Assembly: GCF_000003815.2 (NCBI RefSeq)
Contig: NC_049981.1
Span: 13,255,856 to 13,319,855 of the forward strand
Source: Branchiostoma floridae
Taxonomy: Eukaryota > Chordata > Leptocardii > Amphioxiformes > Branchiostomatidae
Direction of reading: 5' to 3'
DNA: 64,000 nt
A program made the position numbers and the translations under genes. Below are positions 14,243 to 63,900 of the stretch, piece by piece; the stretch's first letter is position 1, and each line of letters opens with the position of its first letter. A model generated the notes under the pieces. The model worked only from the letters and a program-made list of their open reading frames with translations. It was not told the DNA's origin and did not search any database.

Positions 14243-17177
14243 TTAAGGCTGGCGCTGTGGCCCTCGGTCTTCATCGTAAGTCACTGCATACGGCTGAAGC
14301 TGTTGCCCTGGGTCTTCATCATGGGTCACAGAATACGGCTGAAGCTGTGGCCCTGGGTCTTCATCATGGGTCACAGAATACGGCTGAAGCTGTGGCCCTG
14401 GGTCTTCATCGTGGGTCACTGCATGTGGCTGACGCTGTTGCCCTGGGTCTTCATCGTAAGTCACAGAATACTGCTGAAGCTGTGGCCCTGGGTCTTCATC
14501 ATGGGTCACAGAATACGGCTGAAGCTGCGGCCCTGGGTCTTCATCATGGGTCACTGCATGTGGCTGACGCTGTTGCCCTGGGTCTTCATCGTAAGTCACA
14601 GAATACGGCTGAAGGTGTGGCCCTGGGTCTTCATCATGGGTCACAGAATACGGCTGAAGCTGTTGTGCTGGGTCTTCATCATGGGTCACTGCACAAGACT
14701 GAAGCTGTTGCCCTGGGTCTTCATCCTGGGTCACTGCATGTGGCTGACGCTGTTGCCCTGGGTCTTCATCATGGGTCACTGCATGTGGCTGACGCTGTTG
14801 CCCTGGGTCTTCATCGTAAGTCACAGAATACGGCTGAAGCTGTGGCCCTGGGTCTTCATCCTGGGTCACTGCATGTGGCTGACGCTGTTGCCCTGGGTCT
14901 TCATCATGGGTCACTGCATGTGGCTGACGCTGTGGCCCTGGGTCTTCATCATGGGTCACTGCATACGGCTGAAGCTGTGGCCCTGGGTCTTCATCCTGGG
15001 TCACTGCATGTGGCTGACGCTGTTGCCCTGGGTCTTCATCATGGGTCACTGCATGTGGCTGACGCTGTGGCCCTGGGTCTTCATCATGGGTCACTGCATA
15101 CGGCTGAAGCTGTGGCCCTGGGTCTTCATTGTGGGTCACATCCACGTTGAAGGAGGTCACTGAAGAAGGCTGAAGCTCCTTATTTTCCCCGTCACCTGTC
15201 ACATCATTAGCAAAGGTCACTGCATGCTGCTCAGTGGTACAGCTGTCTTCTGACATCTGGTCACGAGTTGAGGTTGTCGTTGCACACGGTGGAGGCTTGC
15301 GAGTTTTCCCTTTCCCTGTCCCATCCATGTAGGTCACGGAATATGACTGAATGGAATCATTTTCTTCTGATGTCTGGTCAGGAGCTAATGTTGTCGTTGC
15401 ATATGGCGGAAGCTTGCCATTTTTCCCTTTCCCTGAAACATCCATGTAGGTCACAGCGTATGGCTGAATGGTACTGCTGTCTTCTGATGTCTGATCATGA
15501 GTTGGGTTCGGTCGTCCGTCTGTAGCTGAGATTCTGCCAGATGCCTGCAGCTCAGCGTCTGTGCACACCGCGTACGGTTCAATGTTCTGACATGATTCTC
15601 CATTCGGTACATTTTGTTCAGCATCACAGCAGTTGCAGAGTGAGAAGATAGCCACTAATGCCAACACAAAGAGGAGTGGTATGACGACAGCAGCGGTCAT
15701 GGCAAACAGATAATATAGACGTGTCTCCTCTTCGTTATTCTTGCTGATTCTGTCTCCTGGATGGATAGCTACATAGTCCATCTCTGTTGTATTATCAGAG
15801 ACTGATACGTCGCTTGTGTATGGTACCTCCGTGTGGTCCTCGGTTGGGATCGCCTCATTGTAGATGAGCTTGTTGACAGATGAACTGGTTGTTGATACAG
15901 TGCTTGTAGTGCCTGCTGTGAGGTACATATCATCACAATTTCCATCAGACCCGATCCTTTGACGTGACTTGTTCATGTTACTCCGGTCTACATTGGCCCT
16001 CAAGGTGCTGAGGAGAGTACCTCTCAGTTCAGCTGGTGAAGTGCACTTCAGAGAATCGGGGCTGGAAATAAAGTCCAAGTCCGGTAGGCTGCAGATGAAC
16101 CATTTGAGATTCTTGTTACAGTTCAGATCATTGTTTTCTATCTCAAGGCGTAAGTGCAGGATTTTGTTCAGCAACAAGACTTTGTGATTGATGGCTGTGA
16201 TGCGGTTTCCTTGTAGGTTTGCCCATTTCAGTGCTGTGGGCTGGAGGAGCGCATCAACAGGCACAGACCACAGGTTGTTGTTGGAGAGTGACAGGGAGAC
16301 AAGAAGATGTAGGCCCCTGAATGCATACTGGGAAATGGAGGAGATTGCATTCTTGTCGAGGGACAGATGAAAGAGACCCTCAAGTCCAAGGAATGCACCG
16401 GGTTCTGAAGATAAACAAAAGAGAACCATGAATAGTCCAATTGGGGACCGACAACAGCAACTACCCAGATACCAAAATGTGCACAGACTGTAACGACTGA
16501 TCCATTTACTCTGGGAATGATCATCATTTTTTTTTCATAAGTATGATGGGAGTGGTCGAGGTGTGGCTCCCCTCAAACACGGGGTGACATGCATGAGACA
16601 CAAGAAAGTATGATATGATATCGCTGATGGGGAATATGGCATTTAACTTACAACAGTTGCTACACATCAGCATATTTGATAACACACACGGCGTCAAAAT
16701 TGATCTCAACATACCTAGATTGGAGATGCGGTTGTCATTAAGGTAGAGGAATCGCAGCAGTGAGAGACCTCGGAAGGCCCCTGGCTGGATTGTGGAAACG
16801 TTTGACCTTCGGATGTGAAGGATCCAAACGTCTGAGAAGCTTGCAAAAGACCCCTCTGGTATTGTAGAAGACCAGAGATTCCTGATGAAGATTGATAGTT
16901 CTTTTCTGTCATCATCACGATCAGTCGGTATGTTGTTCAGACAGGTCGGTATGGAGTCCAGACACACAGGGAAACTGTACGTCCCTCCATACCCAACCCA
17001 GCTGCAGGGTGACCCCTCCCCGTCTTCATATGGACAGGGACAGTGAACTCGGGATTTTCCTGAAGGTTTATGTTCGAATGCATAACAGCAGACTATGCAC
17101 CGTGGTACTGCTTCAACCACAGCATACAGACGATTCGAGACCAAAAGTAGCACGAGCAACACCTTGCCTCCCGTCAT
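14243..17177 (-). CDS. Leucine-rich-repeat transmembrane receptor with a repetitive Tyr/His cytoplasmic tail
   Basis: Exon 1 is 16715-17177 and exon 2 is 14243-16404, joined in phase through a split Glu codon (CTA G / AA CCC) to give 874 residues. Residues 1-24 are a signal peptide (VLLVLLLVSNRLYAVV). Next come a Cys-rich N-cap, about five LRRs with typical spacing (LRFLYLNDNRISNLEPGAFLG, in part; LVSLSLSNNNLWSVP), and an LRR C-cap (NDLNCNKNLKWFICSLP). A Ser/Thr-rich stalk leads to one membrane helix at about 385-411 (FAMTAAVVIPLLFVLALVAIF) followed by CNCC. The tail has three older long repeats containing PYAVT/SYSVT/QHAVT, then 19 full 15-residue units and a partial one (residues 579-874). 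Likely a cell-surface binding protein with multiple phosphorylation or docking sites. The +3 residue after Tyr is Thr, so the motif is not an ITIM. The ligand is unknown and no named orthologue is recognised. Confidence 0.85.
14246..15133 (-). repeat. 45-bp coding minisatellite, 19 units plus 11 codons (receptor tail)
   Basis: Read on the minus strand, each unit encodes [HYQ]DEDPGxQxQP[YH][AS]VT. Of the 19 full units, 10 have Tyr, 8 have His and 1 has Cys at the key position. Units 2-10 form three triplets (His, His, Tyr or Cys) and units 13-18 form two triplets (His, Tyr, Tyr), showing a 135-bp higher-order period. Because 45 is a multiple of 3, other frames on both strands are also open for about 900 bp; these are shadows. 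Confidence 0.93.
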
Positions 17178-30915: not shown

Positions 30916-33900
30916 CTATATAAAGATGCCACACTTCCTTTTACTAATTCAAAATAATTGCCCTTAAATTGCTCTTGTAGATTACAAATGTACAAAATAT
31001 ACATGGAAGTTACATTTTTGCACTGTGCTAATTTTCTCTGAATAAGTTTGATTGGGCAAATTCCCTTTTCATCATATGTATGAATTAATATAGAGTGACA
31101 TGTATTTCATGTATGTACTGAAATAAACCATCATAGTAACTTGACTTCTTGAATCAAAAATCAGTCTCCTAAACCTAAGTATGAAATGTTGGTGGGAATT
31201 AATTGAATCTGAGTACTGACCTTGATTGGGCCCAAATGAAGGTCGTCATAGAAATTTTTCTGTTCACCAATGGCACCTTCTACCATCATGGCCATCAGGC
31301 TGGTTTGGGACACTTTAATGTCTTCTTGGAAGTACTCCAACTGGAGGAGGATGGACAGATGATACATGAGTGGAAAAATGGTAAATCATTTACAATATGT
31401 GTGTGTCACATAATATAATGCTAGTTCACCTTTATCCGAGGGGTAACCTATATACGTTATCTTTGAAAAAGTTGACAGACGGTGGTTTCAAAATGCAATA
31501 TTTTTCAAAAAAAGAATAGTGATATCCCTAAAAACCCTGTTTTGTAAACAGCTGATATACATGTAGGTTACCCAGTAGATAAAGGTGAACTAGCATTACT
31601 GTTTAGAAGGTGGTGAAACACTAGTTCTGGGATTATGACACAAAAATGCAGAGAACCAAAGAAAAAAAGTTTTCCTTGCATGGTCTGTATCTCTATCTGT
31701 ATCTGTATCACATTCAGTATTACGAGAATAACCACCCTTTGGTGTGATACACCAGCAGGCACGTGGCGTGGCAGCAGTTGGTTATATCAAACTGAACAAT
31801 ACGTAACACTAAGCTTTGCACATAAGCAATATTTAAAGCTATCTAATGGGGTTGCCCCTACATACCTCTTGGTCAGGGTTGTGTTTTTGATCTGTAGTGA
31901 AGAGCTGTATAATAGCGGATAGGAAGCCCTGGTCCACACTCACAGCATACTCCTGCATTAGAGCCTTGAAGTATCTACAAGAATAGGAATATGACATGTA
32001 ACCTGTGAGCATGAAAATGTAGTTTCTGCGCTATTGATATAATTAGGGACTAAATATTCAGCAACAAGTACAGATGAACACAGAGAGCTGTGATAAAAAC
32101 TTGCATCTGGGTATAGACCTATCTATAGACAGTCTCTTTATAGACGGTTCCAAATTTGCAATCTAACAACAAACTACAATGTACTTGAACTGGCGTGGTC
32201 TTCATCCAACTTACTTGATCTGTCTGACATGGCTGTGTTCTTCTTGTCTCATCACCAAACTCAGCTCAGTAAAGGGTTTAGGAGCTGTGGATGAAAGTAT
32301 TCATTATTACTACCTAAAAGCACATCTAATTTTTACAAACTTCAATGAAAAAGCAGATACCAAAAGCCAAAGAAAATAAGTGTAGCATGTAAAAAACATC
32401 TTTTAAACACATTCCTTGCCTAACTTACCACTGTCCAGGGCGACTGACTTGGGCGGAGCTATGGGGTACAGGACACAGGGGAACACACAGGCAGGCAGCT
32501 GGTTGTCAATCTGGAAATAGATTATAGACATTTAGGTAAAACCTGAATGTCTTCAGAATTAATCACTTGTCCAATGAGCCAACACTTACACACATATCCA
32601 CACAGCTCCAGCAGGCCTATGTTTTCCGTTGATTAACAGAACTTTGCTGTGTGTGATGGAAAAATTTTAAAAACTAAATCCAGAGAGGACGTGAGATTCC
32701 ACAGGAAACAAATGACATTGTGTGCTAATGGAAAATGTTGGCCGTGCCTGTAAGGCTGACAGATTTTGATAAATTTCAGCAAAATCATTGGGTAAAATAG
32801 GAAATAAACATGGTCTAAAATAGGAAATAAACATGGTCAATGAGTATACTGACCTGTAGCCTGTTGACCTTGAAATGCAGAGCTTGTTGATGACAGGACA
32901 TCTTGACCTGTGCCCAGATACCCGGCTCAAACATACGTCGGACGTTCCTCTTGTTGGGTTTGTACATCCGCATCTCAGATACATCCACCTGGAGACCAAA
33001 GGTGAAAACAGAGCCTTTAAAACCTCGATGTTTCTTCTCACACTATTTGTTGGTGTTCTTCTCACACCATTTGTTGGTGTTCTTCTCACACCATTTGTTG
33101 GTGTTCTTCTCACACCATTTGTTGGTGTTCTTCTCACACCATTTCTTGTATAGTGTGGCATCTATCTTCAATTCAGCCATCAGGCCACATAGCCATGCAG
33201 GCACAGATACTACAGCAAGAGGTTAGTCCACTGGTAGTGGTGTATGTTTAACTACCATCCTATTTCTCATGATCAGAAGTGCTAAGTGCTAAGCAGAGAA
33301 GCAGTATGTGTTCGGTATGACTTGCTCAGGGAATCAAACCAGCAGCCTACCTCATACAAACGGATCACTCTACCCACTAGGCTGTTGTTGCAAATAAAAG
33401 CTAACAAATAAACCAAAACATTGTCCAGCTGCTAAGGTCCTGTGGTTGGTTTTTATCATTCTGAAACCCAGAGTCCAGCTTCAGATGGCTTGTGATTGGT
33501 CCTTACCTGAAACCCTGAGTCCAGCTCCTGAGGGTCTGTGATTGGAATGTCGGACAACTCGGACCATTACCAACTCGGCCCAGTCAACTCGGCCCATCTG
33601 CCGGGACAACTCGGACCATCCCCCCTGGACAGCTATCTAATTGATTTTTTTTTTCGAAAATGTAATCCCAACACTAGTTTACATGTATATACTCTGAAAT
33701 GAGAAAAGTGTAGGTTGGATTGATTGGAGAGTGTAATTCATCGAAGTTTTCGGCATTCCAGGCGGCGCACATTAGGTCGTTGACCCCGAAATACGCAGCG
33801 TGTGTGGACACGTGGATAGGTGTGAGGCGCTTCTAATAGAGGACAGTAGTAAACTTTATCATTACTTGCTCTTCGGAATAGTTTTAGACAAATAAGATGT

Positions 33901-36900
33901 GGGTATTGATCAGAGTATGAGTCATTCTTGTTGAAGATTAATTGCTAATTAAGAATTTTTTCAAGCCGACCGTGTCCACTTTGTTTTAATATTGCGGTTT
34001 TAATATCACCGGCGCCCGCGGTACATATGATACTAGATCAAAGGACCGCCACTCTGTATGACCATAACTTCTGACGTTCTAGTAGTAGCAGCTGTGGACA
34101 ATCTTTATAATACTAGTACAAATGTACCAAGAAATGTCAAATTAACTTTTTTTCAAAAGATAAGTAATTTGGTCCGACTGGTACATGGGGGTGGTCCGAG
34201 TTGACCAGGGGGGTGGTCCGAGTTGACCAGATTTTCAATGGGCCGAGTTAGTATTGGTCCGAGTTGTCCTGATTCCCTGTGATTGGTCCTTACCTGAAAC
34301 CCTGAGTCCAGCTGCTGAGGGTCTGTGATTGGTCCTTACCTGAAACCCTGAGTCCAGCTGCTGAGGGCCTCTGATTGGTCCTTACCTGAAACCCTGAGTC
34401 CAGCTGCTGAGGGCCTCTGATTGGTCCTTACCTGAAACCCTGAGTCCAGCTGCTGAGGGTCTGTGATTGGTCCTTACCTGAAACCCTGAGTCCAGCTGCT
34501 GAGGGTCTGTGATTGGTCCTTACCTGAAACCCTGAGTCCAGCTGCTGAGGGTCTGTGATTGGTCCTTACCTGAAACCCTGAGTCCAGCTGCTGAGGGCCT
34601 GTGATTGGTCCTTACCTGAAACCCTGAGTCCAGCTGCTGAGGGCCTGTGATTGGTCCTTACCTGAAACCCTGAGTCCAGCTGCTGAGGGCCTGTGATTGG
34701 TCCTTTCCTGAAACCCTGAGTCCAGCTGCTGAGGGCCTGTGATTGGTCCTCACCTGAAACCTGAGTCCAGCTGCTGAGGGCCTGTGATTGGTCCTTACCT
34801 GAAACCCAGAGTCCAGCTGCTGAGGGCCTGTGATTGGTTCCCTGCCCATGCTGAGGAGGATCTGGTTCTTGCGGTACGCCTCCTCCAGTAGGTTACACTT
34901 CTTCAGCGACAGCGGCTTCCATCTCCGCCGTAGCTTCTCCTCCCAGATCACACCCGAACTAACAATGAACAAAAGCAGGAACACATTGACTCAGTCATAA
35001 TTGGGACCTAGTGACAAGGAAGAGTTTGATGAAGGCAGCGGAACAATTACAAAAACCCTGGTCAAACAAAGCTTTTATTCAGAAACAGCAACCTAACATT
35101 TGCTGCAAAAAAGATAAGATTTCAGATGAAAATGCATGTTTTACCTTGTCTTGTGAAAACAGTTTTAATATTCATAAGTCAATTATGTATGACTGATACA
35201 ATTCCATATCAAAATGTCCAATCATTGAAAGTCTTACCTGGTGATGCCAATGTAGGATATCTCTGTCTTGGTCTCATTGTTAACTAGTGAGATCCCAAGT
35301 CCATGGATGTGCAGATTGATCTCTTGTTCTACTCTCTCCAAGTCAGCCTGGGATGGGCAAAAAAGTAAGGTAGGTGTCATTCAAAGTTTGCTTGCATTCC
35401 TTGAAACCATAAACATACTATGATCTGATATAATATAGCATCATGCTAACATTTGACTTTTCCTTCATGTGAGCATGTCTGTCTCACCTCATGAGCCCTG
35501 GTGGTGACGGCCAGGTCCTCAGTGAACAGCAGCACCCTCTGGAGGCCATCCAGGAATGACACCCAGTACAGCTTCTGGTCACCTGACAGCTTCACCTCTC
35601 CTATTCCATCCTAAAGACAAGACAAACCATGGATCAGAGATACCAGTGAACAAAGTTACCCAAGTTGCGAGCAAAGCACAAGTACACATAGGATGCATCA
35701 TCATGATTCTTACTTTTGATGTTGACAAAGGCAGGTGATTCTTCTAAGATGTCAGACATTGTCAGTTATTAAAAAGTAATATAGTGAACCTATAATTATG
35801 TTCCTCTTAAGGTATTATTGTATGTCAACATGTGCAACACATTTGCAGACTTGTTAATACCTTGAGAACCAAGGGGATGATTTACAAGGTTATCATTAGC
35901 ATGGTTAATGTTGAAATTACATAGCTGGTAGAATGCTGCAAAAGGACAGTAAATGCTTCATATATTCCAATTCATGGTGTATAACTTAGATGCATTGAAG
36001 ACTTATTGTCAGTAGTGGTGCAGTTGCAAAATCCCTCGTGATTAATGCAGATGCAGCACTGAACAAACCAGAATAAAAAAAATGCTGTGCTATACTGTGT
36101 CATACTGCTGCAGATCAATCCTCAGATTCTGAGAATTTGCTTAGTGGCTTTTCAGCAGAAAGATGTAGCAGCAAGGACACACGGCAGCTAAGGGTAGAAT
36201 TGCAGTGGTTAGGAAGAGCATGACTAAAGAAGAAAAACAGTAGAAAGAAGGACAAATCAATTGCAAGACAATCTCATTAGATGCTTTCCTAAGCAGCTTC
36301 AGCAGTTTGGATAATCTATTCCATTCTATGATAGCTGTACAAACAATACAGAGCCAGCCTTCTGTCTGATCATATATATATTTAGATGATGTATGTATGC
36401 TATAAACTTACATAAAATATATAATCCATTTCTTAAAGTATAGAAACGTTACCTTGATCAACTTGTCCTTGCCATTATGTTTCTCGTTGCCGTCTATGTT
36501 CCAAAGCAGTTCTTTCTTTCCTGTGGGGTCTGCCCATGTGTACAGGACTGCCTGCTGGGGGGCCAGCACATAGGTCTGCTCTTTCTTCTGCTGACTGAAA
36601 TATGACAAACAATACAGTATGAGACATTGTTAACATGCAATGTATGGCCGCTAGTGTTTTTCTACTGATCAACACCAAGAACAGGTGGGTTAGCCTTTGT
36701 GTGGATGGAATACCAAAGACAGGCATGTCTACCTGTGTGTGGATGGTGTTCAGCATCAGGGATGGACATGTTTGCATGTGTGTGGAAGGTGTTGAGTACC
36801 AAGAAGAGGCATTTTAACCTGTGTGTGGATAGTGTTCAGCACCAGAGACAGGCATTTTAACCTGTGTGTGGATAGTGTTCAGCACCAAGGACAAGCATGT

Positions 36901-39900
36901 TTACTGTGTGTGAATAGTGTTCAGCACCAAGGACAGGTGTGTTTACCAGTGTGTAGACAGGGTGGGGACAGGCATGTTGTACCATGTATTGATGACTGAC
37001 TTGAAGTTTACACATAATGCTCTCATGTCATCATAGCCACTTTCATACATATCCTACATTTCCTATCCTTATAAATCAATAAACAATATACTACTACCGC
37101 ATGGAAGCGGGGTGTTATTATACACCACTTTTTTTACAGGGATTACTGTAAAACAGCAAAAACAGTGCCACCCCATGCCATACCTCTGTGCGTAGTGGAT
37201 GAGGTTGTTTGCTGTGTGGTTGACTATGAGGACAGCAGCCGCCCCTGGGGAGTACCCACTGAAGCTGATGATGTTGGCTGACTCAGAAACCTGGATGTCT
37301 ACAAAGATTCCTCCTACCTGAAAAATAAACGGTCCAATGTCAAGTTACTATGGACACACCAAAATAACAGACACACTGAAAACAAAGACTGTGTACACTG
37401 AGTCAATTACAAATACCAGATTCACCAATGATAGATTAACACCCTTACCTCATTAACAAGTTTGAGAAGTATTCCGTTGTTATCCTGATTGAACTGGAAG
37501 TTTTCGGTGGTGTCCTGGCCAGGGGGCGAGGCCGTCAGCTTTGCTCGCAACTTCTGAGACTTGGGCTTCGGCCAGAATGGTGTACACTATACAACGGACA
37601 GAATGCTTGTCACATGTCTAATTCCAAACCAATACTTTTGAAACCCATACTTTTCTAAATAGTCATGATTAGTTATGATTATACCACATATAAACTGTTA
37701 AGAAACATAAAAAATGTCAGACCTAAATTTACTATAGCACATTGCATAGATGCAAAATACTGTGTTATCCATACATTCAATCACTCACTCACTCACTAAC
37801 TCACTCACGAATGAACGAACGAACAAACTCACTCATGAACAAACGAACGAACGAACAAACAAACAAACAAACTCACTCACTCACTCACACACGAAGGAAC
37901 AAACGAACAAACAAACAAAGGAACAAACGAACGACTGTTACCTACCCCTATGTCAGGGATCCCAGGAGAAGTTTCATCAAATAAAGGATACTACTACAAC
38001 TACATTTGTACTACTATTCCTTCCATCTCTCCCTCCCCAGACCCTACCTTCCCTGCAGGTACATCCAGCCACTCCTGACCCTCCTCCTCCTGCACACTGA
38101 TGTCAAACTGTGCAGAAACAGGGCACAGTATTGTACTGTTACTCCAGAGCAACAGCACATATATGCATGTATCGTTAGTGCATACAATTGTTACTAGTAT
38201 TGTTTTTCAAAGGTGTATGATAACAAATAATGCCTATATTGTATACTGTAGAATAATTTTGTCTACATTGCATATTGTGGAACAAAGCCAATCAGATTGT
38301 AAGGGCATATCACAAGTCAACATACTATCAATCTAAAATTCTGTCTTGAGCTATACTTTACATTTTCACAAAGGTTTCATAATCTAAGATGGAGGATATA
38401 AAGCATAAGGTGTACCTCTGCATGGTTGACCAGTAGATAATGTGGAGTGAAGATGACTTGTTTGGTCAGACTGAAGTTACTTAGCTGGATCTTTACACCA
38501 ATCTGAGGGAATACATAGGCATAGCAAAATCAATAACAACTCTTGACATAGCTTGCCTTCAAAATTGGATGAAAACAGAGGTGTACAAGGGATTATTCTT
38601 TTACATACCATCTGCTTCTACTACCAAATAAAATTGACTAGTAGACATCAACAAAAAATTGAATAAACTTAGAAGTAGACTATGTGAATTCTGCATAAGG
38701 TACTAATTTTGGTGAAAAAGATGATGATTCTGCTTTAGTTACCTCGTAGTTGATGTCCGTACCCTTGGCAGCCTTACAGGTGATAGAGCCAGAACTGCCG
38801 ACTGTATCTACAGAGAACTTGTCGGACCACTCTGACTGGGAGTCCACTCGTAGGAGGGCCTGAAACATACAAGTCAAAGGTACAGCAGCCATCCTCTAAT
38901 AAAATGAGAGCACACATTGACAATGACTAATAGTACCCTGTGGCTTGCATGCAACTTCCTTGAGGATCCCCATCCACAGCAATGCTCACAACATTTGTTA
39001 CACTGTCTTGAATACTTCACATTTGTGACTGGTAAGTTTTGATAACAAACTTAGTACTGGGCATACATGTATGCTATTTTGATGCTAGCTTACCTTTTTC
39101 TTGGCAAAGAGGCTCTTTGGTTTGAACGAGAACAAGACGACATCTTGTTGGTTGGGAGGATGACTCATGACTGCAGTATCATCAGATGCCTGAAGCAGAA
39201 AATACTACACTTCAGTTTCCTTCTGCTGGGTTATTGACTAATTAGGCAAATCAGACATATTGTTAACATAGTGCATTCAGCACAAGGAAATAAACCTGTC
39301 CTTGGTGCTGAATAACACAACTACACACTTGCATGTCTAGTAGCCATTAAGTAACTTCTAGTGGACTTTAATTGCATGTAAAGTTGTCAATTATCATACA
39401 TAACAATATTTTCCTGTAGTTAAACAAAACAATTTCATCTTGTAGACTTAATAGCATCCCACACAATTCATAAATAGCAAGTTATGATGAAGCATTTGTC
39501 CCTAATATGCAAATAATTTTCAAGACCTTCTAATGATATATCATTAGAAAGCAGTATAAAGTGCAAAAGGTCTAAGCTTTTGATTGTTATGTTTTAGATA
39601 AGCATGACTACCACAAGGACTAGTCTGGAGATGCAGCAAGACAGACATGGACATTTTAGAAAGACACAGACAAAGACAAATGCTCTAATGCCGATGTCGA
39701 TGAGTTTGACAGAGAAGACTGACCTCTTCAGCAGCAAACTGTCAAGGTTGCGGACAGAAGTGAAGAAATAGACAGACATGCACAACAGTTCAAAGAGCAT
39801 TAACTGTAGTGCCTATACTATTGTATGACCAACACACATGGACAGTGATTTATTGTAATGTAGAAATGTATCTCTAAATATAAGAAAACACATACTATAC

Positions 39901-51900: not shown

Positions 51901-54900
51901 TCTTCTACACTGTTATAATTGTTTATTCATGTTAGTGTGTTAATGTTGGATTGTATGGATTTGAATTCCAACATAAGTGTGATGATGGGGTAGTATATTT
52001 GTTATTCATTTTATAAGTAGTCAGTTATCAACCAGGAAGGTTTGGGCATACAAGGAATAGGAAATATTATAAAAGTCGTGGGCAATCATTTCAGTAGGAA
52101 ATGTTTAAGGTAGGGTTGACAATGATTTTTAGGATATAAACAGAGAGGAAAAGAGAGAGAAAGAGAGAAAGCCTGTTAAGATATCAACTTGATGATTTTG
52201 ATTTAATGCCATGGAACATTTCATGTGATTCGATACACAATATCAGGACTATGACACTTCAGAACACTACAAACAGTAGTCTTTGCTACCTTAACACTAG
52301 CCATCCTGTAGAAAGGCATTGTTTCTTCTGGTATACCAATATTCATGATAGTTACTGTAGCGAAATTTTTTTTCATAAGAGGACTTCTAGATAAATTATA
52401 TATATGAATAGTACATATCTTGTGCTTAGATGAAATAATCAAATACAATGTGTAAAAAATCCTAGTTTCTGTGCTTGAATATTGGCTTATTTGTACATGT
52501 ACCATTATTGTTTATTTTCAAGATAGGTGTACATGTACCAGATATATCTGTTTAGTCTCTTATCATGATTGTTACCTTGTGATGCCGTGCTCCCTCCCTG
52601 GTCTGGTGTCGTCTAGCGTCATGTCGACCAGCGCCACACGTGTCTCCATGGAGTTATCAGACTGCATCCTCCCTTCTACCTGTATTGTGTGCAGCAGGAA
52701 ACTGCCCAGGCAGGTCTTCTGGTCTCGCACACAAACACCAGAGGCACAACTCTGTAGGAAAGGTTGGCCAATAGAATGAAGACCTATTTGTGTTGATAGG
52801 TCAGTACTGTCAGTGTGAATGTTGTTCAGTACTGAAGGACGGTGCTGTCAGTGTGAATGGCATTCAACATGTTAATCAGTACCAGGGACAGTGGTGTCAG
52901 TGTGAATGTCATTCAGTACCGAGGACAGTGCTGTCAGTGTGAATGTTGTTCAGTACCAAGGACAGTGCTGTCATTGTGAATGTCTTTCAGTACCAAGGAC
53001 AGTGCTGTCAGTGTGAATGTTGTTCAGTACCAAGGACAGTGCTATTAGTGTGAATGTTGTTCAGTACCAAGGACAGTGCTATCAGTGTGAATGTTGTTCA
53101 GTACCGAGGGCAGTGCTGTCAGTGTGAATGTTGTTCAGTACCGAGGGCAGTGCTGTCAGTGTGAATGTTGTTCAGTACCGAGGACAGTGCTGTCATTGTG
53201 AATGTCTTTCAGTACAAAGGACAGTTCTGTCAGTGTGAATGTTGTTCAGTACCAAGGACAGTGCTGTCAGTGTGAATGTTGTTCAGCACCAAGGACAGTG
53301 CTGTCATTGTGAATGTCTTTCAGTACAAAGGACAGTGCTGTCAGTATGGATGTAATTTAGTACCAGTGACAGTCTAAATTGAATATAAGCTTAGACAGCC
53401 ACATACAATACTACATCATGAAAAATAATAATTCAAAGAACTGGATAAAGTCTCAAAAGAGTCAGATATTTCATGTTGCATCTGCGTAGTTAAAATGGTA
53501 GAAACCCCAACTCACCAAATCTGTCTTTCCTGTATGTAGAGCTGCTGACAGACTCTCCAACTCAAACTTGAACTGAAGTTTGGTCCAGACTTCAGCAAAG
53601 GCAACCCTTGGAGCCTCAGCTGCAGTTCAAAGTTGAAATAATTGTAATTTTACAGTAACATCTTGCATACTCCCAGAATAATAGAACACAACAATGCAAT
53701 CAGAGATGGCAGACTTCACCCCTTTGAAGAAAAGAACCCAGGCTGAATATACAGAAACTACAGTGTGGTAACAGTTACACACGCTGACAAATGTACAGAC
53801 AGACATGCCCAAAACAAAAGTTCATTACCTTGAAGGCAAAAAGTGACATTGTGATAAGTAACAAAACTGGGATGATACTGAGTGGTATTGATAGAGTATT
53901 ACACATTCAGGGTTTGAGGCACAAGCTAATCAATGGTACAATCCGTATAGACATCAGTGAACAAACCTTTGGAAGTATCTGACTGTTCTCCAGGGACCTT
54001 CAACTCCATAGCGCCCTCTGGTGGTGACTCAGGCTGAACTGCAGCAGGTTTCCCCTCATTCAGGTTCTGATCTAGAGTGGCCATCATCATGGTGAAGTCA
54101 TCCTGGCCAAGCCTCACCTACATGACAATAGATGAAGTCTCAACATTTCTGAATCTTCCTCTATCTTAAACAGTAATACTGTAACTTCTAAATACATTAT
54201 ACATGCATCAAACAAGAGCACCTGACTCCATCTGCAAAATATGTTTTACCATATGATTATATGACCCGCTCTCTCCCCATGATGATACAATACAGATCAT
54301 ACCAGCTATAATTGTACCTTTGATGAGAATATAGGTGAGATCACTATTTATGATTTTATTATACAAAACACATCAAAGAGAGCTACTGATAATTTTGCTA
54401 AGAGGAAAAAAGATGATAACAATACTTTTCCTTTACCCTAAAACAAGCAATAGTATAATAGCTATATAAAAGCTACACAATAATGCCTTGTCTCACTGAC
54501 ATCGATGCACATCATTAGCTATCTTTACTTTGGAGCAGGCAAACTACATGTATGTTTCAATATAAAAGTCAGAAGACAGCATACATTGATAGTCTCCAGT
54601 TTTCCTGATATGTCGACCTCCGGTACGTCATGATACCAGCCAGCGGCGAGGTTCCGAGTGATGGATAGGCGGAGGTTGACAGGTTCAATCAGCAGGATTT
54701 CTGCCTTACACTCATCCTTCTCCATCAGTCCCCTGTAAAGTATAGACAGGTAAAAAAATTGTTATAAACAAACCAAAGACCAACCAATTTAACAATTAGT
54801 ATATATCCTCTGCGTGAGTTCTTGATAAAGCATGACTAACTTCAGAGAAACCACTGCTCCTGAAAATTTAAAAAAGATCACATTTCAGCACCAAGGACAG

Positions 54901-57900
54901 GATCATGCACTGTACAAGGGACACCTTTATTCATGATGAATGACTTTTTTGTGAATGTAAGAGAGTCTGGAAAGCATTCTTGACCAACCTGGACATCTTT
55001 AATGCTGTCAGGTCAATCTTCATGCTGTCTAAGACAGCAGGCACATCCTTACTGGCATCTCCACTGATGCGGAAACTGTTCTGCACTGTCAGCTTTCCCA
55101 GGTCAGCTAGCAGAGCTTGTCTGAAATTTAAAAAAAAAAAGACAAAACTTATTATATGAACATTCAAGATTGCAGTTAGCAATATCTTAAAGCCTTTAAT
55201 GATATACAATGAAGCTTGAAGGCAAATAGACTATTCAGGTATGACTATCTAAGTAATATTATTACCATTTGAATTCCTTTCCTCAAACTGTGTGAGTTTA
55301 ACATTCTTACTTGTTTGTAGACAACTGTGGAATGACTATGACAGGTGCATTGACTTACCTGTTTGTAGACGACTGTGGAATGACTATGACAGGTGCATTG
55401 ACTCACTTGTTTGTAGAAGTCTGTGGAATGACTATGACAGGTGCATTGACTCACCTGTTTGTAGACGACTGTGGAATGACTATGACAAGTGCATTGACTC
55501 ACCTGTTTGTAGAAGACTGTGGAATGACTATGACAGGTGCGTTGACAGAGATGTCCAGTGCTAGTCTGGTGCTGGTCTTAGAGAAGTCCTTGGCACTCTC
55601 CAGGGCAGCCTGGGTGGCTTGAGCACCAGCCTCTGACAGAGCAGCTTTGGCAGCCTGGAACTCATTCCCAAACGCCTGGAAAGGGAACATAAAAAAAGTC
55701 ATAATGGAATGCTAAAATTAAAGAAAATCATATTTTTTTCATCGTTGGGTAAGAGGATGGCAAAGTGGTCTTGTGCTTAGGGTTTTTGACTGAGTAGAAA
55801 AGTTCTGTGTTTGAATCCCTTGCAAGCACCAATGTTGTGCCCCAGGGAAAGGCTTTTATCTCACTTGACTAAGTGAGTTGTTATTAATTAGCTTTGCGTA
55901 CGGACATAATTTCAGAGGGGACATTAGGTCTTCCAGGTCTGATGTCATGCAGCTTGTATTTACTTCACAAACCACTTGTGTTACTCCTTGCTGTTACTTG
56001 TTATGCAAAACAACCATGATAACATGTTTTGCTTGAGCTCAAGAAAGTTATCTTCACTAGGCTGAAGCACTTACATTTGTAGCCTTGAACAGTCCAATGT
56101 GATGTGGGTGAATGAAATATTGCATGAGTGAATGAATGAAAGATTGAGTGAATGAATGAAAGATTGACAGAGTGACTACATGAAGAAGGGAAACATTGAA
56201 TGAGTGAGAGTGAATGACTATTTTAAAGTAAGTAAATGGAAGATTGCATGAGTGACAGGAATGAATGACTATTAAGTAAGTGCAAGATTGAGCTAATGAA
56301 TAGAATGGAAGATTGAATGACAGACAGAATGATGTACTGAATTTTAAGTGAATGAAAGATTGAATGATTTGATGGTCAGATGACAAGACAGTATTAACAA
56401 AATAAAGGAACGGACATACCAGCAAACATAGCACACACATACAAACAAAAATAAACATTGCACTCACCACCAGGCCCTCTACAAACTTGTTGAGGAAGAC
56501 GACTCTGATACAGCCGACCTGCAGGCCTACACTGGTGTCCACCACACTCATGTCCCTGTAACCCTGGCCTTTAGTCGCATCATTGTAGACGACAATGTTC
56601 AGGGCAAACACCTCCTTTCCAACAATGGACAGAATCTGGAGAAGAAAGAAAATATCTTAGGTATTTCTAATGATATTATCAGCGCATATCATGCGTATGA
56701 TGTATGATGAACAGTAGTAGAACATACTTTAGATTCTTGTCACGATGGTAGTTACTGTTATAACTGCTAACTTAATTAATCTTATAGCTACCTTTCAAAG
56801 GGTATGCATATTAAGTTGTATTTACCTTTGGGTAGAGAGAGTTACGTGTTGGATCCTGCACAACAATGTCCTTCAGATGTGTGTTGACTGTAGTCATGTG
56901 TTTTTGCACAACAACCCCTGCATCAAGACCTGTCAGAAGAAAAGTTGCAATTTTTAAACTAGATTGTGTGTAAGTCATATTTGAAGAGTGAAACAAAAAG
57001 TGCTCTGAGAAATTGCAACAACTCTATAAGGACAGGTTGCTCCCAACTCCTAATGTATTCCTCATTCCAAACCATGGTTCATTTCCATAGGAAACAATGG
57101 TCTGCCTATGCCTAAATCTCTTATAAATATTGTTAAACTACATGTACATCACTTATAGGACAAAAATAAAAAGACTGCAAGATTTCAGAGTAGTCAGCCC
57201 CAGGCTTTAGCCAATAGTCTGTATTATAAAAACACACACCTTTGATCTGTACATCAGCCAGAGTAGCTTCATCTGTACATACAACCACAGACAGGGTGTC
57301 CAGCCGGGCATCGATCTGGATGTCAATCTCATCTGTCTGCTCCTTCTTCTTCTTCCACTTTCCTGTAAAGTGGACATTCAGAAGTTAGGTGATGTCCTTG
57401 GTGCTGAAATAGGGGTCCCTAACCACTGGTTATTTTTGGGGAGTTAAATTTGCAGTAGAAGGGGTTTTACTATGTTTTAAGTTCACGGTTGAAACATTTC
57501 TGTAGTAGAGTACTAAAACACACATTTGTTGTGTCATGAATTTGAGGGGCAGATGTCACCACTGCACTGAAAACATTTTAAGATTTACAGTAATATGAAA
57601 GTGAGGATTCCGAAGAGCTAAGGCGGTTGAGAAGCAGGTATATGTAACCTGGGTGGGTAAATGTTAATGGAGGTTAACACATTCTCTGATAATAAAATCA
57701 GAAAAATCAACTTAAGATGCCATTTCAGTTAATATGTACTTGAACATGTGGTAAGATTCTACCCACTGATTCGTCAGATGCCAGGGGGACAAGCGGGTCT
57801 TCATCAAATCATGTAATGCAGAAGACTGACATTACTATACATCAGTGTTGTGGCTCATCTATTATATATATCATAGTGCAGCAAAATGGCAATGAGTGAT

Positions 57901-60900: not shown

Positions 60901-63900
60901 TGTGTAGATCTCTTTAAGTTCCACTATTTTTAATCGACCGGTATAAGGCTTATGACCGGTATTATGCCAATGCATGTTACTCATCCTTCATTAATTCATT
61001 TGTTGTTCAAGCCATACAGTTCAGCACAATGGCTGCAAACAGCCTTTTTTTATACTGTGCTATTAGTATGTAAACTAGTCTACATGTGTTCTACTATTTC
61101 CATCCATTTATTAATTATCTTGCGATTGTTGAAGCCTTGTAGTTTAGCACTTGTAAACAAGCTGCAAACAAGCTTCACTACACTACTGAATAAACCAATC
61201 TAGTACAGTACCCATCCACAATGATTCATCATTAATTCAGTTCTACTACATTATCGTAACATTTACAAGCCCCCCTAATGAGGCTACCTTTACCTTTAAA
61301 CAGCATGTGCTGCAGCCCTATCCCCCCCAGGAAGGCATGTGCAGACAGGTCCCAGGTTCTCTTCCTGACCTCTGCCCCCACAGACTGAACTGCCAGCCTC
61401 AACAGCTGCATGTCGACATTGTTCTGTAGCCTCGAGATGTTTATGATGACCTAGGAAAGGTGGGCATCAATGTTAGTTCACCTTTATCCTCTTGGTAACC
61501 TATATCCGTTGTTTTTAAAAATGAGGTATTTAGGGATATCCACGGATGGTGGTTTCAAATTGCAATATTTTCAATTTTCAAAATGTTACAGTTTGAATTT
61601 TGAAATAATCATCCGTCTGCTTGTTATCCCTAAATAACCTGTTTTAAAATATAGGTTACCAAGTGGATAAAGGTGAACTAGCATTATATACATGTCAACC
61701 ATTATTTCATGTGTGGGTGTGTACATTGTAAGTGTGTGGGGTGGGGTTGGGGGTTGGGGTTGGGGGGTAATTGTGTTTGTGAGAGTGTGTGTATAAAATT
61801 CTACATATAGATTTGTAGCCCCCTTGTACCAAATTGTCTTTACCTCCTTGATCTCAAAATGAAGTTCTAACTCAGTCTTCTGTTGCCCTTCTTCAAAGCT
61901 CTTTTGTGACGGCAGCCTGCCAAGTCCCACTGGGGTCTGCCCACCTGAGGAGTCTGAAGTGTGGAAGTCTTCTTCTGCTGATAGGTAGATTGACTCCTCA
62001 CTCTCACCTGGGTACAACAATAGACTATTATATACGGCCTCCATTGGTCAGCGATCACCATGGTACATGTAAGTCCTATTTGATGTCACCCCTCCACCTT
62101 TGGCTACTGACCTACACTATCAACATGAGAGCCTATGACACATAGGGCACATCTGTAACTGACTCAGGTCAAAGTTCTGTTGTGACGGCAGCCTGCCATC
62201 TCCCACTGGGGTCTGCCCACCTGAGGAGTCTGACGTGCGGAAGTCTTCTTCTGCTGATAGGTAGATTGACTCCTCACTTTCACCTAGGTAGAACAGTACA
62301 CTATCATATAAGTGGGGCTTTTTGTCTTCCTCTGCTTCCAAAAAGAAGTCAAACCCAACCTGTTTAAAGACAGCCAACACTAGTATTCGAGTAGTCTCTT
62401 TTTACAATAATATTTATTACTATCCATTGTCACATGTATTTGTGTGTTCCCTATGTATCTACCATGTATTTGCTATTAGCCTCCGGGCATGAACTTGCAA
62501 ATAAACTCCATAATGTACAAAATGTATGGCCTCCTTTGGTCAGAAATGACCCAATTTATATCAACTCTACAGCTTTGGCTAACAGCTTTGGCTAAAGTAT
62601 TTGACTTTGACATTATTACTGTCCGATACAGGAATGACAGCCTCTGCCACATATGGCACATCAGTAGGCTGTCTCAGGTCTATGTCTTCTAATACCAAGA
62701 TACAAAAATAGCATACTAGTATCTCATTTGATTTGTTCATCTCACTTTAACAGAGCTTTTGCCAGAAAATAGTTTCATCTGGACATTACACAAAATAATG
62801 TTCTGCAATAGATCATATTAAATTTCACATACTTCTCATATTTCTTATGATGTAAAATGTTTAAGTGTTATTGTTATGATAACCTACTTTCTGCGACCTT
62901 CCCCACTGCCATGCTGCTGACGACCTTGAACACGTTTGTTGAGGAAGAGTCATCAACGGCGAGACGCACCGGAACCTGTGGGGGAAAAATCATCATCGTC
63001 AATATTACAATCATGTCCTTTTCATGAAACACCATCAGCAGTGACATTGCTGTTTTTATGGTACTGAAATGCTATCAACCAAAATATTTTCCTTTCCATT
63101 GTACTGAAATACCATCAGCAGTGACATTGTTCTTTCTATGGTGCTGAAATGCCATCAACCAAATATTTTTCCTTCTATGGTACTGAAACACCATCAACCA
63201 GCAGTGACGTTGCTCTTTCTATGGCACTGAAATGCCATCAACCAAAATATTTTCCTTTACATGGTACTGAGACACCATCAGCCAGCAGTGACATTGTTCT
63301 TTCTATGGTACTGAAATGCCATCAACCAAAATATTTTCCTTTCCATGGTACTGAAACACCATCAGCATCTTCACTGTACTTTTCATCCATCTAATGGTAG
63401 TCTTTTTTTATCATTTACACCTACCTGCAGTTCAGGTGCTGTCTGCTGGGGGGCAGCGGGAGGTGGTGGAAGGGGGATACTCTGTACAAGACTGAGGATT
63501 TCTTGTAACTTCTTGTCCGACATGTTCAGCTGGATCAGGGGAAGGTGTCCAGAAACCTTGATGCTAAAAGAACAAACTTCATATTGTAATATGAACTGTT
63601 ACAGTCATATTGTCATTTATATTGGAATGATACAAAAACATCTCAAACAATATTATCATCATTCCTTATGCCTATTGCAGTTGTAAGGCATCTTCTTCTT
63701 CCGTCAAATTCAAACTAGAAATTGCTTGAGAAAAAGTGCAGTCCAGTCCTTTTTCGATATCAGATAGTGCAATGGCGCCTTGCTATGACTTGTTTTCATA
63801 GCCAAGCCCAACGCCCCATCTTCACTTATCTTGATGGTACTGTTACATACTTTGGCATTCGGACATCGTTGTCCACCATACACTTTTGCAGCAGCACATC

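Follow-up and report, generated by a model that had tools for sequence, protein, structure and literature searches.

We analyzed a 64,000-nucleotide (nt) stretch of the Branchiostoma floridae genome (contig NC_049981.1, positions 13,255,856 to 13,319,855), here called the window, which carries exons of a VPS13 gene on its minus strand. At the 3' ends of two of these exons, we found minisatellite arrays whose repeat unit crosses the 5' splice site and copies the donor. The features are as follows, with positions counted from the first letter of the window.

34799..34958, minus strand: VPS13C-like exon of 160 nt, with an open frame, ending in GACTCTGGGTTTCAG and then GTAAGG
33425..34838, minus strand: minisatellite array 1, with a 46-bp unit and 15 copies counting the exon copy
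34838-34793, minus strand: copy 1 of array 1, consisting of the last 40 nt of the exon (34838-34799) and GTAAGG
34793..34798, minus strand: donor 1 (CAG/GTAAGG), assumed here to be the productive 5' splice site
34748..34753, minus strand: donor 2 (CAG/GTGAGG), 45 nt downstream of donor 1
34702..34707, minus strand: copy 3, donor destroyed (CAG/GAAAGG)
33544..34276, no strand assigned: transposon-like insert of 733 bp that interrupts copy 13 and has imperfect inverted ends as well as subterminal repeats
34277..34284 and 33536..33543: direct 8-bp target duplication AATCACAG flanking the insert
32879..32988, minus strand: opening part of the following exon, whose first base is 32988; these 110 nt entered the frame test
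55503..55675, minus strand: VPS13 exon of 173 nt ending in array 2, with a Pfam VPS13_M match (expect value [E], 2.1e-10; 39.9 bits against a curated cut-off of 50 bits)
55310..55546, minus strand: array 2, with a 48-bp unit, five copies, and five donors

Two exon-edge arrays in VPS13

A sequence-only reading of the window had placed array 1 in VPS13 and described its unit as the last 40 nt of an exon plus GTAAGG. Both statements held. The exon at 34958-34799 alone aligned with VPS13C residues 3115-3149 (E, 1.8e-5), and when spliced in silico to the next exon, it aligned with residues 3115-3187 (E, 1.4e-6). Same-strand exons at 55 kb and 59 kb matched VPS13 Pfam models (E, 2.1e-10 and 6.2e-5), both below the curated cut-offs. 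Tandem Repeats Finder, run on the window, reported a repeat at 34276-34838 with a period of 46 bp, 12.3 copies, and a 97% match, and on the minus strand the unit reads as 40 nt of exon 3' end followed by GTAAGG. Elsewhere in the window, the best ungapped match to this unit was only 27 of 46 letters, which excludes chance repetition.

Copies 2 to 12 follow copy 1 consecutively, copy 13 is interrupted by the insert, and decay marks copy 14 (from 33500) and copy 15 (from 33450), which is partial. We found that CAG/GTRAGG is retained in 12 of the 15 copies (copies 1, 2, and 4 to 13); copy 14 reads CAG/AATGAT, and copy 15 has no donor. The earlier count of about 14 units after the exon is thus right when decayed copies are included, the copy number coming from a single assembly. 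The ladder of near-perfect donors it described does exist as donors in a row, but not every copy has kept its donor. Neighboring copies share blocks of variants (G/A at position 12 and C/G at position 9), as expected from unequal exchange. The transposon said to lie in the array was also found, as the 733-bp transposon-like insert with its 8-bp target duplication. Elements of the hAT type combine short inverted ends with a target duplication of 8 bp; the insert shows an 8-bp duplication and imperfect inverted ends, and no transposase was seen in it, no protein match having been sought.

Array 2 was absent from that reading; the gene has at least two such arrays. The array 2 unit consists of the last 44 nt of the exon at 55675-55503 plus GTGA. 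Its donors are, in order, CAG/GTGAGT, CAG/GTGAGT, CAA/GTGAGT, CAG/GTAAGT, and CAA/GTAAGA, with GT present in all five copies. The introns flanking the array 1 exon are 279 nt (upstream) and 1,810 nt (downstream), and the intron downstream of array 2 is 382 nt. Other minisatellites of the VPS13 region, at 36712-36954, 52869-53373, and 63036-63366, showed no exon-edge placement in our scan, which used a weak codon score. Outside the window, at C262:525390-530540, VPS13_M matches lie in a run of 1,883 open codons reported for one strand. The VPS13 gene of the window is, in contrast, divided into many exons, and the C262 gene may be an intron-poor paralog.

Arrays of this kind have been described before. 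In the available parts of PMC3087553, minisatellite-like tandem repeats are reported across exon-intron boundaries of amphioxus globin genes (BflGb6 and BflGb9) and, earlier, in Adh3, where they were termed "mirages"; the Adh3 mirage is said there to be somatically unstable, and regular splicing is apparently undisturbed. The parts of PMC3902484 available add PGBD5 as a further mirage gene and mention TnC. The class and the instability that the sequence-only reading had mentioned for amphioxus Adh are in print. The published units measure 10 to 72 bp in Adh3 and 150 to 160 bp in the globins (PMC3087553, in part). We found that both VPS13 units cross an exon-intron boundary (40 plus 6 nt and 44 plus 4 nt), that the splice signal, which many but not all copies of a mirage carry, persists in 12 of 15 copies of array 1 (and GT in 5 of 5 copies of array 2), and that unit lengths of 46 and 48 bp lie within the published range. 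Judged by sequence, both arrays are mirage minisatellites; the class is already known, and VPS13 is a new host gene.

Reading frame and donor choice

To compare the donors, we spliced each one in silico to the following exon. Among the 12 donors of array 1, donors 1 and 2 left the frame intact, donor 4 gave a frameshift, and the other nine led to a stop. In array 2, only donor 1 kept the frame, and donors 2 to 5 gave an immediate stop. The frame spliced through donor 1 of array 1 tracks VPS13C across the junction, and all three exon-versus-array differences that we checked were synonymous. On coding grounds, donor 1 is probably the productive donor, since later donors mostly shift the frame or meet stops. 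Donor 2 of array 1 lies at an in-frame offset of 45 nt because one base is missing from copy 2. If used, it inserts 15 codons in frame, and it would be tolerable on coding grounds. We also considered recursive splice sites, in which AG and GT are juxtaposed, and rejected them: there is no pyrimidine-rich tract, with 8 of 17 (array 1) and 9 of 17 (array 2) pyrimidines before the AG.

How the spliceosome picks the first donor had been called an open question. A general answer has in fact been tested, because identical-donor minigenes used the upstream donor exclusively. In the available parts of PMC9225289, minigenes that offered the spliceosome two copies of CAG/guaagu, with introns of 365 nt (a setting of exon definition), spliced only at the upstream donor, and strength-matched natural pairs with long introns favored the upstream donor as well. 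The first-donor choice in VPS13 would be best explained by exon definition. Some observations weigh against this account. Two of the introns at issue are short: 279 nt before the array 1 exon and 382 nt after array 2. The cut-off between short and long introns in the two-donor minigene study was reportedly 250 nt. Natural human events, when pooled, favored the downstream donor (~60%) until strength was matched, and at 3' splice sites exon definition merely weakened the upstream preference (both from the available parts of PMC9225289). Acceptor arrays, described below, are for this last reason less well explained.

Recurrence in other genes and proposed origin of the arrays

To look for such arrays in the whole genome, we counted two copies of a donor 9-mer lying 25 to 55 nt apart on both strands of the assembly (513 Mb, 431 contigs), with the reversed pattern as a control. 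We found 681 tandem pairs of CAGGTAAGG and 2 of its reverse. The counts were also raised for CAGGTAAGC (181 versus 0) and CAGGTGAGG (144 versus 8). We had expected a large excess for every strong donor, but AAG-type donors exceeded the reversed pattern by a factor of just 2.3 to 2.9 (AAGGTAAGT, 31 versus 11; AAGGTGAGT, 63 versus 22; AAGGTAAGG, 112 versus 48). Pairs of CAGGTAAGT numbered 298 versus 8, and we did not use them as mirage evidence, because most of the places listed belong to one dispersed, transposon-like repeat. The reversed pattern is too lenient a control, and we therefore added a dead-donor pattern with one base changed, CAGCTAAGG; it gave 51 pairs versus 1 reversed, in 10 clusters in all.

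Among the 100 matches listed, which cover the first 83.8 Mb, CAGGTAAGG formed 17 clusters, and this extrapolates to ~104. An exon end supported by an open reading frame (ORF) stood at the start of 14 of the 17 (13 of the 16 fetched, and VPS13); VPS13 not counted, the exon had a Pfam match in 9 of the 14. Four other arrays fetched alongside the 16 all started at ORF-supported exon ends. In 20 further arrays, the exon end was clear in 7 and plausible in 4; 4 were cut off before their 5' end, and 5 were negative or unclear. The exon peptides of pattern arrays had Pfam matches in 16 of 28 cases, 11 of them above the curated cut-off, and included huntingtin, PDS5, the dynein motor region, TMEM237, HNF-1, and a BACK domain. 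Exon support throughout means open frames plus Pfam or PDB matches, as a codon-usage score separated exons poorly.

A preset sample, with positions chosen beforehand (C1 8.0-8.2 Mb and C2 8.00-8.05 Mb; 250 kb, including 1,212 N), contained three exon-edge arrays, one of donor type and two of acceptor type. The donor array lies in a tau-tubulin kinase gene (C1:8071482-8073395; 37 copies by loose matching; exon versus TTBK1 E, 1.3e-26). In matrix scoring, 32 of its 36 later donors fall below the first and 4 do not. The two acceptor arrays lie in one gene, one at a WW-domain exon (NEDD4-like ligases; E, 1.7e-38) and the other at an exon supported by its open frame, with no Pfam match. The copy contiguous with the exon is the first in donor-type arrays and the last in acceptor-type arrays. 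With only three arrays, the 250 kb are too small a sample to show that exon edges are enriched beyond random placement. Together, these data suggest that the exon-edge array class is genome-wide.

A dispersed 50-bp tandem repeat also occurs throughout the genome (for example, C1 8046852-8047196, L007), and each of its units has a CAG/GTRAGT donor plus an acceptor-like tract. It often lies as opposed pairs ~1 to 2 kb apart, which is transposon-like, and bears both kinds of splice signal.

We then measured where the units end in 29 arrays. The 40 fetched by pattern supplied 26 of these, VPS13 two, and TTBK one. The 14 remaining fetched arrays (L035, L041, L043, L048, L050, L051, L052, L053, L054, L056, L057, L059, L060, and L066) were excluded for having no clear exon, just a single pair, or a 5' end that was not reached. 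A strict rule stated beforehand, that the intronic part is always 6 nt, was ruled out, because this part ranged from 0 to 60 nt. It was 8 nt or less in 13 of the 29 arrays, compared with 5.1 expected for a uniform breakpoint (P = 0.0004) and 6.1 under a looser null (P = 0.003); these nulls are simple, and the ends of array alignments are ambiguous. In several arrays of 8 nt or less (L039, L040, L042, and L045), an exonic AGG or AGT matches donor positions +4 to +6. The excess near the donor is suggestive of a founding duplication seeded by microhomology. It is weaker, to the detriment of this view, once L063 and both arrays of VPS13 are removed (10 of 26; P = 0.003 to 0.03) and among arrays with Pfam or PDB support (6 of 17; P = 0.02 to 0.10).

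According to our model, a tandem duplication would have started within the exon and reached a few nucleotides into the intron (6 in array 1 and 4 in array 2). Every copy would bear an exon end and a 5' splice site because the duplication spanned exon into intron. Seeding was probably by short homology between the donor AGG/AGT (+4 to +6) and an exon motif 25 to 60 nt upstream. The array would then have expanded within the intron, and it would survive because splicing keeps using the copy that adjoins the exon. We consider this the likely origin of the VPS13 mirages: duplication of an exon end with its donor, growth in the intron, and tolerance through use of the exon-adjoining donor (probability, roughly 0.8).

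If CAGGTAAGG were simply a generic minisatellite core that expands readily in this genome, its likeness to a donor would be coincidental. This would fit the excess of its 681 pairs over those of other good donors (AAGGTAAGT, 31; AAGGTGAGT, 63; AAGGTAAGG, 112), the 51 pairs that the dead donor still forms against 1 reversed, and the donor-bearing arrays that are dispersed transposon-like repeats and not exon ends (L035 and L043 included). However, one donor-killing base lowers 681 pairs to 51 and the extrapolated ~104 clusters to 10, and as single words outside arrays the two are similarly frequent (5 and 3 in 628 kb, both strands). A coincidental core also sits poorly with the rise of CAGGTGAGG and CAGGTAAGC and with the exon ends that open 14 of the 17 clusters, 9 of the 14 with Pfam matches (VPS13 aside). 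We therefore regard a generic core as unlikely.

A regulatory role is more improbable still. Donor 2 would then purposely add 15 residues, and the rest would give early-stop transcripts that tune VPS13 output. Donor 2 is indeed strong and in frame, and nine later donors do reach a stop, but the block-wise variation among copies is what neutral turnover of repeats would give, copies at the edge have decayed, the array is interrupted by a transposon-like element, and 32 of the 36 later TTBK donors fall below the first in matrix scoring. We attach very little weight to an assembly artefact in the array or its copy number, despite the single assembly, the near-identical units, and a globin mirage misassembled in an older draft (PMC3087553, in part). 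Differences among copies fall in shared blocks, an insert with a clean target duplication splits the array, a genome search with array 1 finds this single place, and the same architecture occurs in many genes.

Neighboring features, significance, and comparison with known systems

Elsewhere in the window, a 45-bp coding repeat (14247-15139, minus strand, 19.8 copies) forms a single open frame with a YAVT/YSVT tyrosine motif in each unit. It lies ~2 kb from a same-strand leucine-rich repeat (LRR)-type exon (LRR_8; E, 3.6e-9) and is perhaps the tail of an LRR receptor. A dynein heavy chain exon lies at 502-1089 on the plus strand (AAA_9; E, 5e-70); the LRR-type gene region thus lies between two large genes.

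An exon followed by a dozen near-identical donors makes a cleaner test of donor competition than most built minigenes, and in VPS13 the setting is a conserved gene whose protein is preserved by the first one or two donors only. The array itself joins a known class; the broader count of exon-edge arrays is the part able to shift views. If the counts are a fair guide to the frequency of the class, proximity rules for splice sites could be tested on many natural arrays, and the birth of minisatellites could be linked to splice-site sequence. As a tentative extension, in which our confidence is less than even, 5' splice sites may be breeding sites of minisatellites, CAG/GTAAGG foremost, through AGG/AGT homology with an exon motif 25 to 60 nt back. 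Exon definition would shelter the arrays from selection, and donor or acceptor ladders would occur at exon edges numbering in the hundreds to thousands, including some in the huntingtin, PDS5, dynein, and VPS13 genes. Were this true, the genome would hold a natural experiment on splice-site choice and standing, perhaps somatically unstable, material for intron change.

In the literature searched, which included few subscription journals, we found no genome-wide account of amphioxus exon-edge arrays; only PMC3087553 and PMC3902484 cover such arrays. Like the mirages of Adh3, the globins, PGBD5, and TnC, the VPS13 arrays consist of tandem units over a boundary, with splice signals in several copies; either boundary can be involved, the array would be removed as intron, and edge copies are not homogenized. 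VPS13 differs in being a new gene, in having two arrays in one gene, and in the insert within an array, and the whole-genome pattern counts and the breakpoint measurement are new relative to the published work.

Human segmental duplications contain tandem repeats at exon-intron boundaries, with 27 intron modifications counted after manual inspection (PMC2812944, in the parts available). These repeats likewise place minisatellite units at exon edges and alter exon-intron structure. They change splicing and create introns in young paralogs, whereas in VPS13, a conserved gene, the frame argues for an unchanged mRNA. Intron gain by AGGT-bearing tandem duplication (PMC4974935 and PMC3443670) shares the tandem duplication of splice-site-like sequence. 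That process makes a new intron; in VPS13, none is seen, and an existing intron acquires the copies.

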